From: Lachnospiraceae bacterium
GTDB taxonomy: Bacteria; Bacillota; Clostridia; Lachnospirales; Lachnospiraceae
Direction of reading: 5' to 3'
DNA: 33,925 nt
Assembly (NCBI GenBank): GCA_017962105.1
Contig: JAGCVY010000033.1
Location: 1-33,925, forward strand
The notes beneath the pieces were generated by a model. It was not told where the DNA came from. It was given only the letters and a program-made list of their open reading frames with translations, and ran no database searches. Below are positions 917 to 4,274 of this stretch, one piece after another (the stretch's first letter is position 1; each line of letters begins with the position of its first letter). The translations under genes and the position numbers were made by a program.

Positions 917-1957
917 CTATTCTACAGGCAATCCCTCCGCGGCATTCATGGCGCGGGCACAGCGGGGCGCTTCGTAAAGCTTCCCGTGCACAAAATAGTT
1001 GTAAGACCGGCATCCGCCGGCGCAGTAGGCGCCGAGCTCGCATTCGGCGCATGGACCGGTCAGCATGGTCTCGTCAAACTTCCGGTTGTACGCAAAGGCA
1101 TCCGGGTCCTCCCAGATGTCGCGAAGGGTCCTCTCCCTGAGATTTCCCTCCGTAAAATGCGGATCATACATGGACTCGCATCCCCGCACGTTGCCGACGC
1201 TGTCGATGCCGATGGACGACAGTCCTGCGCGGCATCCGGTGTAGTAGGCCTTCCCGCTCATATTGCCGCGGATGCTCCCCTCCTCCGGCGTGAAATATCC
1301 GATGTTGTCCGCTACGCCAAGCATAAACGGCGCCTGCCGCATGTGCCCCGCTGCGAAGGCGATCACCTCCCGCGGGTCAAAGTCAATGTCGATGCCGCCG
1401 TTGGCGGCGTTTCCCATGGGCGAGCATGCCTGCAGCTGCCAGGCGAAGATCCCGCTGCCGAGAAGAGTCTCGTACAGAACAGGCAGCGTTTTTGCATTGG
1501 CCGCATTCAATGTGCTGATGACCGATACCGGGATCCCGCTGCCCGAAAGCTTTGCGATCGCCGCTACGGCGCGGTCGTAACTGCCCTTCTGGCGGTACGC
1601 ATCGTGCACCTCCCTCGGGCCGTCTAAGGAGACCGACACAGACTCTACATTGAGACGCTTAAGGTCCGCAAGAAGCGCATCCCCGAACAGGAAGCCGTTG
1701 GTTATGATGTTCACGCGGATCCCGTGGCCGGTGAGCCTTCCGACGATCTCCTTCCAGTCCTTCCGCATGAACACTTCGCCGCCGATCATGGAGACGCGCT
1801 CACAGCCAAGCTCCGCCAGCTGATCCGCGACGGAGAAGCACTCTTCCGTTGTAAGCTCGTTCTCTCTCGCCCGGCCGCCCGCCGAGCCGCAATACTTACA
1901 GGAAAAGCAGCACGCGAGCGTGATCTCCCAGACGCAGTGCCGTAGGTTGTACATCAT
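917..1957 (-). CDS. Radical SAM/SPASM maturase-like enzyme
   Basis: A 346-aa radical S-adenosylmethionine enzyme with a C-terminal SPASM domain. The SAM iron-sulfur cluster motif is CX3CX2C at C16, C20 and C23. The SPASM domain has the canonical CX2CX5CX3CXnC spacing (C303, C306, C312, C316, C333), plus GC pairs near residues 242 and 261 that can ligate auxiliary clusters. This is the architecture of maturases that form crosslinks in ribosomally made peptides (PqqE, AlbA, sactipeptide and streptide-type enzymes) and of sulfatase maturases. Its ATG overlaps the stop of the upstream VYAGP-repeat gene as ATGA, so the two are translationally coupled and that protein is the obvious candidate substrate. 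No peptidase or exporter adjoins. The stop codon is TAG. The enzyme class is certain; substrate and chemistry are inferred. Confidence 0.93.
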   Translation of the reverse strand: MMYNLRHCVWEITLACCFSCKYCGSAGGRARENELTTEECFSVADQLAELGCERVSMIGGEVFMRKDWKEIVGRLTGHGIRVNIITNGFLFGDALLADLKRLNVESVSVSLDGPREVHDAYRQKGSYDRAVAAIAKLSGSGIPVSVISTLNAANAKTLPVLYETLLGSGIFAWQLQACSPMGNAANGGIDIDFDPREVIAFAAGHMRQAPFMLGVADNIGYFTPEEGSIRGNMSGKAYYTGCRAGLSSIGIDSVGNVRGCESMYDPHFTEGNLRERTLRDIWEDPDAFAYNRKFDETMLTGPCAECELGAYCAGGCRSYNYFVHGKLYEAPRCARAMNAAEGLPVE

Positions 1958-2577
1958 ACGTTCACCTGCTCCTCATTGTTTTTCAAAGGAGTTGCACAGA
2001 ACGGGCAGAAGCGGAAGCCGGGTTCGACCTTCGAGCCGCACTCCTTACAAAACATCAGTTTTGATCCCATCATGGCGCCGGACGTCTCTCCGGAATTCTC
2101 CGGATCCTCCGGTTTCGGCATCATGTCCGCACGGAAGCCCTGCATCTGCGCAGGTCCCGCGTAGACAAACATCATCGTCGGCCGGTTCTGTGACTGCATT
2201 GCCCAGTAATCCGGTCCGGCGTACACCGCCACCATCGTCCGCGGATCGATCTTCTCTTCCTCCGGTTCCGGCTCCTCATTTTCCGTCGTTTCAATTTCCG
2301 TTGCTTCGGGGTCCGTTGCTTCGGTTTCCGTTGCTTCGGGATCCGACTCCTCCGGCTCTTCCGGTTCTTCCGGATCTACCTCATAGCCGATCTCGTCCAT
2401 CATTCCGGGGCCGGCATAGACGTCACAGATGTTGGGATCATCGTTCTCATCGTCGTCCTCATCCCCGGGGGTGTACCCGGGCATCTGCCCCGGTCCCGCA
2501 TAAACACGGCCCATGCGTGTCCCCGTCATTCCGTTTCCCGGATATTTTCTCTTCTTTAACCCATCAAAAAGTCCCAT
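1954..2577 (-). CDS. VYAGP-repeat acidic zinc-ribbon protein, candidate radical SAM substrate
   Basis: A 207-aa soluble protein I do not recognise. It carries four copies of VYAGP followed by a G/D/A-Q/M/Y-M/W tail, at residues 25-29, 53-57, 118-122 and 138-142. Two acidic, low-complexity spacers separate them (39-48, and 68-112 rich in E, P, T and D, with a degenerate EAT(E/D) repeat). The C-terminus is a zinc ribbon with CX2C pairs at C177/C180 and C191/C194. The N-terminus begins MGLFDGLKKR. There is no signal peptide or double-glycine leader. An AGGAGAAGGAGAG stretch precedes the ATG. Repeated identical cores beside a coupled radical SAM/SPASM enzyme suggest that each tyrosine-containing core is modified, with the ribbon or N-terminus acting as recognition element. 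That role is inference. Confidence 0.8.
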   Translation of the reverse strand: MGLFDGLKKRKYPGNGMTGTRMGRVYAGPGQMPGYTPGDEDDDENDDPNICDVYAGPGMMDEIGYEVDPEEPEEPEESDPEATETEATDPEATEIETTENEEPEPEEEKIDPRTMVAVYAGPDYWAMQSQNRPTMMFVYAGPAQMQGFRADMMPKPEDPENSGETSGAMMGSKLMFCKECGSKVEPGFRFCPFCATPLKNNEEQVNV

Positions 2578-2798: not shown

Positions 2799-4274
2799 AT
2801 GAGCAATATTCCTGTAGTAAAACTCGGTATTGTTGCCGTTAGCCGTGACTGCTTCCCGATCGTTCTGTCCGAGAAGAGACGCGCCGCTATCAAGGCAGCT
2901 TACAAGGGCGACCTCTATGAGTGCCCCGTAACGGTTGAGAACGAGCTTGATATGCTCAAGGCAGTTGAGGATGTGAAGAAGGCAGAGTGCAACGCACTTG
3001 TTGTGTTCCTCGGCAACTTCGGTCCTGAGACTCCCGAGACTTTGATCGCTAAGAACTTCGACGGCCCTGTAATGTTTGTTGCAGCTGCTGAGGGTGACGG
3101 CGACATGATCAACGGCCGTGGCGACGCATACTGCGGTATGCTGAACTGCTCCTACAACCTCGGAATGCGCCACCTCAAGGGCTATATTCCGGAGTATCCG
3201 GTAGGAACCGCTGATGACATTGCGAAGATGATCGCTGACTTCGTTCCGATCGCTCGCGCTATCATCGGTGTTAAGAATCTTAAGATTATCACCTTCGGAC
3301 CTCGTCCGCAGGACTTCTTCGCCTGCAACGCTCCGATCAAGGGTCTCTATGAGCTTGGCATCGAGGTTGAGGAGAACTCCGAGCTTGACCTCTTCGTAGC
3401 TTACAAGGCACATGAGAACGATCCTCGTATCCCTGAGGTTTGCGCTGACATGGCAGCTGAGATGGGCGAGGGCAAGTATTATCCTGAGATGAGCGCACGT
3501 ATGGCACAGTTCGAGCTTACGCTCCTTGACTGGGCTGAGCAGCACAAGGGCGCACGCAAGTATGTGGCATTTGCCGACAAGTGCTGGCCTGCATTCCCCG
3601 AGACCTTCGGTTTCGAGCCTTGCTACGTGAACAGCCGTCTTGCAAGCCGCGGTATCCCGGTATCCTGCGAGGTTGATATTTACGGTGCTCTCTCCGAGTA
3701 CATCGGCGCTTGCGTGACCGGCGATGCGATCACCCTGCTTGACATCAACAACTCTGTTCCTCAGTACATCTACGACGAGGACATCAAGGGCAAGTACGAT
3801 TACAAGCTTACCGATACGTTCATGGGCTTCCACTGCGGTAACACCCCGTCCTGCAAGATGTGCAGCGACCGTGCGATCAAGTATCAGCTCATCCAGCACC
3901 GTCTCCTTGAGCCGGAAGGAAGCGAGCCTGATTTCACGAGAGGAACCCTTGAGGGCGACATCGCAGCAAGCGACATCACCTTCTATCGTCTGCAGTGCAA
4001 CAGCGACGGAGAGCTTGTTTCCTACATCGCTGAGGGCGAGATCCTCGACGTACCTACCCGTTCCTTCGGTGGTATCGCAATCTTCGCCATCAAGGAGATG
4101 GGACGCTTCTATCGCCACGTGCTCATCCAGAAGAGATATCCTCACCACGGTGCGGTTGCATTCGGTCACTGCGGCAAGGCCCTGTTCGAGGTATTCAAGT
4201 TCCTCGGCATCAAGGACATTGCTTACAACCAGCCGAAGAGCCTTCCTTACCCGACCGAGAATCCCTGGGCATAA
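2799..4274 (+). CDS. L-fucose/L-arabinose isomerase family protein
   Basis: A 491-aa cytosolic protein of the L-fucose isomerase-like superfamily (COG2407-type), which interconverts aldoses and ketoses using a divalent metal. Candidate metal or active-site residues are E291 and D293 in the CEVD segment and H345 in FHCGN. A cysteine-rich CX2C follows at 352/355. Length fits the family. The true substrate cannot be read from sequence, and no sugar kinase, aldolase or transporter adjoins. Codon use is unlike the neighbours, with many CTT, GCT, CGT and GTT codons, a signature of very high expression; this matches its consensus promoter and strong terminator. The ribosome site is weak (AGAAAGG, about 14 bases from the ATG), so the start is less certain than the frame. 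A single-gene transcript is likely. Confidence 0.85.
   Translation: MSNIPVVKLGIVAVSRDCFPIVLSEKRRAAIKAAYKGDLYECPVTVENELDMLKAVEDVKKAECNALVVFLGNFGPETPETLIAKNFDGPVMFVAAAEGDGDMINGRGDAYCGMLNCSYNLGMRHLKGYIPEYPVGTADDIAKMIADFVPIARAIIGVKNLKIITFGPRPQDFFACNAPIKGLYELGIEVEENSELDLFVAYKAHENDPRIPEVCADMAAEMGEGKYYPEMSARMAQFELTLLDWAEQHKGARKYVAFADKCWPAFPETFGFEPCYVNSRLASRGIPVSCEVDIYGALSEYIGACVTGDAITLLDINNSVPQYIYDEDIKGKYDYKLTDTFMGFHCGNTPSCKMCSDRAIKYQLIQHRLLEPEGSEPDFTRGTLEGDIAASDITFYRLQCNSDGELVSYIAEGEILDVPTRSFGGIAIFAIKEMGRFYRHVLIQKRYPHHGAVAFGHCGKALFEVFKFLGIKDIAYNQPKSLPYPTENPWA

Follow-up and report, generated by a model that had tools for sequence, protein, structure and literature searches.

A candidate splicease-like editing cassette of Clostridia: a radical SAM/SPASM enzyme coupled to a VYAGP-repeat protein

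The gene pair and its products

The stretch of DNA analysed here (the window, 33,925 nucleotides from a Lachnospiraceae bacterium) carries on its minus strand two coupled genes, whose coordinates, strand and frames were checked. The first codes for a radical SAM/SPASM enzyme of 346 aa (917..1957), a proposed VYA-specific splicease with TIGR04103 and TIGR03913 as its best NCBIfam families; the second, encoded upstream of it, codes for a VYAGP-repeat protein of 207 aa (1954..2577), the proposed substrate, called the partner below. As a preliminary description of this DNA had it, the genes overlap by ATGA, the ATG of the enzyme (1957-1955) lying over the stop codon of the partner (1956-1954). The pair is flanked by a MerR-family regulator (47-868) and by a protein with an L-fucose isomerase C-terminal domain (2799-4274), and the clustering of the window's neighbour ORFs reaches at most its closest relatives (L007-L009).

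The partner contains four exact VYAGP cores, at residues 25-29 (2491..2505, minus strand, as for all features below), 53-57 (2407..2421), 118-122 (2212..2226) and 138-142 (2152..2166). Among 20,000 shuffles of its 207 residues, none had a 5-mer in four copies and two had one in three copies. KYPGN (residues 11-15; 2533..2547) contains a YP motif which, from motif counts over the partners, is proposed as a recognition element; the preliminary description mentioned neither this motif nor relatives with xYG sites. At the C-terminal end, a zinc ribbon of the form CxxC-x10-CxxC (C177, C180, C191 and C194; 1996..2049) matches Pfam Zn_Ribbon_1 (PF13240) at 1.9e-6, above the family cut-off, and 22% of all residues are acidic. 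The cores, the ribbon and the acidic character had all been recognized in the preliminary description and are confirmed. Neither a Nif11 or nitrile-hydratase leader nor a Pfam match to DUF1843 was found on the partner: the Pfam families matched at E < 0.1 are zinc-ribbon and zinc-finger families only, and NCBIfam gave none. The N-terminus, MGLFDGLKKRKYPGN, does not look like a signal peptide.

In the enzyme, the radical SAM motif CX3CX2C (C16, C20 and C23; 1889..1912) is followed by a SPASM region with seven cysteines (C242, C260, C303, C306, C312, C316 and C333; 959..1234), located by Pfam (Radical_SAM, 7.8e-26; SPASM, 3.2e-7) and by alignment. All ten motif cysteines are invariant across 31 aligned relatives, and the full cysteine set first read from the sequence is confirmed. 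W173, Q174 and Q176 of a WQLQ stretch (residues 173-176; 1430..1441) are also invariant in the 31 enzymes, including those of the Nostoc nif11 type and of the GDL type, and they are absent from SkfB, PqqE and SuiB, the three families compared through profile alignments. Since the radical SAM motif starts at residue 16 and the C-terminus comes soon after C333 of 346 residues, the enzyme leaves no space in which a recognition domain could be fused.

Coupling, distribution and site pattern

A scan of genome contigs returned 14 loci at 62-94% identity. They come from MAGs of Clostridia, among them Lachnospiraceae and Ruminococcus, and several have rumen or omasum in their titles. In searches at E ≤ 1e-40, the enzyme gave matches in 14 of 299 genomes of the family (10 at 61% identity or more, the window's own included, and four at only 36-38%), in 9 of 291 genomes of the class (its own, three at 56-66% and five at 37-40%) and in 4 of 398 genomes of the phylum (its own and three at 37%). 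A phage origin was considered and rejected, the scan of viral contigs, whose reach is close relatives only, having given no match.

After removal of six duplicates, the close clade comprises 35 distinct loci. When a partner is defined by (V/I/A/L/T)Y(A/G/P/M/N/E/S/T)(G/A/P)P sites in the adjacent protein, a site-bearing protein adjoins the enzyme in all 35, and in 34 of them it lies upstream on the same strand. The weakest case is L044, where the partner is downstream, on the opposite strand and with a single IYAPP. L045 is also weak: its kinase-FHA protein has a single VYAAP, situated in the linker, and an AYSAP that falls within the kinase domain and may simply belong to a normal kinase motif. 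When the ORFs around the enzyme were clustered by BLAST at 26 clade loci, some of them interrupted by contig ends, the enzyme was present in all 26 and the partner cluster in 17; the clusters ranking after these, one of them ABC-ATPase-like, reach at most four loci, and no third conserved neighbour gene was found in more than 4 of the 26. The enzyme and its VYAGP partner are a two-gene cassette of Clostridia.

Two clade loci deserve separate mention. The kinase-FHA protein of L045 (6105-7370, minus strand) lies directly upstream of the clade enzyme, with VYAAP and RPYPYS between kinase and FHA, and is possibly a splicing substrate; a search for its orthologue in 4 other genomes of its genus gave no match at E ≤ 1e-60. 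In L067, two candidate substrates stand on either side of the enzyme (401-706 and 1822-2517), the upstream one with seven cores and without ribbon, the downstream one with two cores (AYAGP and VYGGP) and a zinc ribbon.

In the genus of the window, the enzyme is present in 16 of 22 genomes and the partner in all 16 of these, 14 through a partner profile at E ≤ 1e-10 and two (G978 and G983) through the neighbouring ORF (L125 and L126). No profile match occurred in the six genomes without the enzyme, four of which are less than 90% complete. In the 299 family genomes, six profile matches span the repeats (E < 1e-17), all six beside the enzyme; at E ≤ 0.001 the profile matches in 283 genomes, mostly through its ribbon part, and the next 24 profile-matched loci inspected were ribbon matches in which no VYAGP-type site was found. 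In one ribbon-matched locus (L108), FYGAP and GYGEP occur in an unrelated ORF. The profile is incomplete, since the more diverged partners in G017, G089, G105 and G194, four genomes that have the enzyme, did not stand out among its matches. Within its reach, VYAGP proteins widespread without the enzyme, which would have spoken against the preliminary description, were sought in the 299 family and 22 genus genomes and not found.

The site pattern was counted with a relaxed search in which Tyr and Pro are fixed and the other positions limited, giving 103 sites in 27 partner ORFs. Val occupies position -1 in 94 of them. At position +1, Ala (96 sites) is by far commoner than Gly (2), and at position +2, Gly (92 sites) is commoner than Ala (9). 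The sequence flanking the cores varies, while the cores are conserved. Off-pattern variants include VYGGL in L066 and AYYGP and AYFGP in loci of the genus. L066 and L067, both inside the clade, mix VYAGP with VYGGP, in L067 on two proteins. From these comparisons, x-Y-(G/A)-x-P is read as one site type, with Ala seemingly replacing Gly in the VYAGP clade.

The dipeptide YP occurs in all 27 partner ORFs, as against 9.4 expected from shuffles sparing the cores, and YPxN in 14 of 27, as against 0.48 expected. It is also found in the ribbon-less partners of L040, L044 and L045, though in L045 alone its probability by chance is 0.66. A zinc ribbon is recognized by regular expression in 26 of 33 partners, and the partners of L009 and L126 have it too. 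It was considered as the recognition element and rejected, because the ribbon is missing from several partners (L038, L040, L044, L045 and, in L067, the upstream one), while none of the partners lacks YP; we propose that the YP motif, KYPGN in the window, would serve this function.

Kinship of the enzyme and comparison with known systems

Among all NCBIfam families, the window enzyme scores best with TIGR04103 (234.2 bits, cut-off 725), which we take to be the same as IPR026482 and to be the family that the PlpX splicease of Pleurocapsa (nif11-class maturase 3) resembles. The second-best family is TIGR03913, that of the GDL maturases (215.8 bits, cut-off 591.75), and lower scores were obtained with WgkB (134 bits), AhbD (134 bits), the mycofactocin family TIGR03962 (128 bits, cut-off 265) and StsB (116 bits), the enzyme lying below the curated cut-off of TIGR04103, TIGR03913 and TIGR03962 alike. 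Each of the 31 enzymes in the alignment has matches to both TIGR04103 and TIGR03913 at E ≤ 1e-10, and also to many other SPASM families. No PDB match is named a splicease, the best being SkfB.

In a tree of the 31 enzymes (LG+C20), rooted at midpoint for drawing only and with long branches between clades that were flagged by the program, the 20 VYAGP-type enzymes form one clade (support 100/99). The second clade (100/98), of eight enzymes, contains L051, L061 and six that have a KYG or LYG protein in their neighbourhood, and the third (100/100) the Nostoc nif11-type and two GDL-type enzymes, to which the window enzyme is 31-35% identical. Twenty-eight residues, for example C178, E261 and R317-S318-Y319, are present in at least 95% of the VYAGP clade and in at most 15% of 16 other enzymes. 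Several relatives at 33-41% identity lie near proteins with xYG sites, namely LYGLP in a Nostoc Nif11 precursor and KYGVP, KYGYP and LYGIEP in Clostridia. The Nostoc enzyme (C057), annotated as a nif11-class maturase 3, has on one side a Nif11 precursor that ends in ALYGLPPELF and on the other a gene of 71 aa; an NHLP precursor is also near. In Clostridia, KYGVP, KYGYP, LYGIEP and LYGIP repeats occur at most 2.5 kb from enzymes 36-41% identical to that of the window, the repeat proteins being of the PIRPLYGIEP (L068), KYGVP (L046 and L072) and KYGYP (L048, L049 and L050) types. No recognizable xYGxP repeat partner was found in the stretches inspected around six other relatives (L047, L051, L064 and L109-L111), and the stretch inspected around L061 showed none, with MYGTG in a short ORF only.

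The splicease system is described in the accessible parts of two papers. PlpX, a member of SPASM subclass IPR026482, excises tyramine from Xaa-Tyr-Gly, and its cluster has precursors of the nitrile-hydratase and Nif11 types and a truncated recognition protein (PMC11002830). PlpXY excises tyramine at XYG, the natural sites being MYG and LYG, and its tags contain PIRP(L/G)YGLPI; in a table of the same paper, two FtsZ insertions with an LYG tag are unmodified and a longer GYG tag is modified (PMC10533398). Since both FtsZ-LYG insertions stayed unmodified, tag context matters, as far as that part of PMC10533398 goes.

Like PlpXY, the window system combines a radical SAM/SPASM enzyme with a precursor having X-Y-small-residue sites, several of which are possible per precursor, and the Nostoc relative of the enzyme has a Nif11 precursor with LYGLP. 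It differs in the residue that follows Tyr, which is Ala and seldom Gly, in its substrate, an acidic and usually zinc-ribbon protein that lacks a Nif11 or nitrile-hydratase leader, in a conserved YP and in having no further gene shared by over 4 of the 26 loci. Furthermore, PlpX works with PlpY, whereas a PlpY-like protein was not found for the window enzyme. In the window's genome, PqqD (PF05402) gave three sub-cut-off matches (best E 0.0087), none of them on the window's contig, and the Nostoc gene in the position of PlpY found only itself among the ORFs of the loci compared, a diverged homologue elsewhere being possible. In sum, CX3CX2C and SPASM are shared with PlpX-type enzymes; the 725-bit cut-off is not reached, and the XYG motif, PlpY and the leader type are not found. 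For these reasons the window system, which would work like a splicease, is not classed as PlpX-type.

With the GDL maturases of TIGR03913, the window enzyme shares its second-best family score and W173, Q174 and Q176, and the C-terminus of the Azospirillum enzyme of this type (L062) matches zinc ribbons weakly, below the cut-off. In contrast, the two GDL enzymes compared are longer (474 and 516 aa) and have small DUF1843 peptides beside them, and assignment to this family is not made for a score of 215.8 against 591.75 bits and a partner without DUF1843. Both GDL-type maturases (L062, 5887-7437; L063, 5932-7356) carry a C-terminal CxxC/CxxC zinc-ribbon-like stretch, while it is the substrate that bears the ribbon in VYAGP systems. 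The clostridial KYGVP/KYGYP systems (L046, L048-L050 and L072) also have an xYGxP repeat protein near an enzyme 36-38% identical in its core, but their enzyme bears a TPR-like C-terminal extension and some of their substrates a chagasin-like N-terminal domain. The extension, seen in L046 (2394-3872), L048 (4580-6034) and L072 (4932-6452), is TPR-like in look (the TPR_2 match in L046 is weak, 0.0046 in Pfam) and is absent in the window enzyme. No literature was found on VYAGP, on YAGP with radical SAM or on TIGR04103 in a search outside which the primary splicease reports lay, and XYA sites or this clade may already be described in those reports.

Proposed chemistry, alternatives and role of the product

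The reading judged probable is that of a splicease-like two-gene protein-editing cassette, in which tyramine would be excised at VYAGP and the protein would stay in the cytoplasm, likely as a protease trap. In each V-Y-A-G-P core of the repeat protein, whose gene lies upstream, the enzyme would target the Tyr. The tyramine portion of this residue (C8H9NO) would be cut out and the leftover carbonyl joined to that of the preceding Val, V-Y-A thereby becoming a Val-derived α-keto-β-amino acid (an α-ketoamide) followed by Ala-Gly-Pro. From its formula, the excised part has a mass of 135.068 Da, and the value printed in the accessible text of PMC10533398 is 135.0757 Da; the window protein would lose 4 × 135.07 Da, or about 540.3 Da. 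Because a fused domain would not fit into the enzyme and no gene resembling PlpY was found next to it, guidance would probably come from the core sequence together with the one YP motif, which in the window is KYPGN. Action at the VYAGP Tyr, already suggested in the preliminary description, is made plausible by the adjacency in 35 of 35 loci and by the genus counts (16/16 versus 0/6), and the coupling likewise suggests that the product is not a short secreted peptide but a protein.

Some features speak against splicing: position +1 is Ala at all four window sites, as against the XYG of the splicease sites described in the accessible literature, the VYAGP clade stands separate in the tree on long branches, and the scores are far under the curated cut-offs. 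The lack of a PlpY-like match, the relatives around which no xYGxP repeat partner was seen and the unmodified FtsZ insertions with the LYG tag count on this side too. Other readings thus have to be weighed, above all a cross-linking maturase that would install one C-C, C-O or thioether link per core, for instance between Val and Tyr, with a loss of 2 Da per site as in triceptide- or mycofactocin-like systems. Mycofactocin chemistry takes place on the C-terminal Tyr of a short peptide, whereas the VYAGP sites are internal. The superfamily and the full SPASM set are nevertheless the same, the repeated cores lie beside acidic spacers, TIGR03962 is matched at 128 bits, and MftC, also a SPASM enzyme, acts on Tyr and the adjacent Val according to the accessible part of PMC8326336. 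However, the scores with WgkB, TIGR03962 (128 bits for a cut-off of 265) and StsB are about 100 bits below that with TIGR04103, and xYG-site proteins occur near several relatives. Splicing is favoured over cross-links because TIGR04103 and TIGR03913 lead the scores and because of these xYG proteins; cross-linking, with its 2 Da per core the leading idea of the preliminary description, no longer leads and is considered unlikely.

Val epimerization, Tyr hydroxylation, backbone cleavage at Tyr or some other change at this site would fit a divergent clade whose chemistry could have drifted along with its 28 typical residues, but the x-Y-(A/G)-x-P site is common to the xYG-associated relatives and such a change is held to be quite improbable. 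That the repeat protein is not modified at all, its repeats forming a binding scaffold or its adjacency being incidental, could be argued from the commonness of zinc-ribbon proteins in the family; the constant adjacency, the genus counts and the conservation of cores among unconserved flanks make this very hard to sustain.

As to the role of the product, the accessible parts of two papers state that β-residues confer protease inhibition (PMC10373908; PMC11117315). Repeat proteins with KYGVP or KYGYP adjoin splicease-like enzymes in four clostridial loci (L072, 3793-4740; L048, 6059-6598; L049, 6064-6987; L050, 4802-5965), and a chagasin-like N-terminal domain is seen among them. The L072 partner has the chagasin inhibitor domain (Pfam I42, 5.3e-12), the L048 partner can be aligned with that of L072 at 31% identity (E 2e-12 in a single comparison, to which the repeats contribute), and the L049 and L050 partners align mutually; Pfam found no family in the L048 or L049 partner and no inhibitor domain in that of L050. 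In this sister group, probable splice sites are coupled to an inhibitor scaffold, and the chagasin domain of one related partner suggests protease trapping as a role. The spliced window product would be a cytoplasmic, acidic, multivalent and electrophilic protein, and its most plausible role might be to trap or inhibit a protease, of the serine or cysteine class, that accepts Val at P1.

A broader proposal is tentative and more doubtful than the reading above: stand-alone, VYA-specific spliceases of Clostridia might make intracellular, multivalent zinc-ribbon proteins that bear Val-ketoamides and serve as built-in covalent protease traps, be guided by YP in place of a leader and PlpY, and have been recruited to other proteins, including the kinase-FHA protein of L045. 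Tyramine excision is known from small bacterial peptides, and its target here is apparently an entire protein of the cytoplasm. If true, backbone editing through tyramine excision would operate on ordinary cytoplasmic proteins, with Ala in place of Gly and without a PlpY helper, and the rules for placing ketoamide handles in proteins would be wider, requiring one enzyme and a short VYAGP site. The cassette would then be a compact system in which to ask what β-amino acids do for protein function in gut and rumen bacteria, the chagasin-containing relative pointing to protease control.
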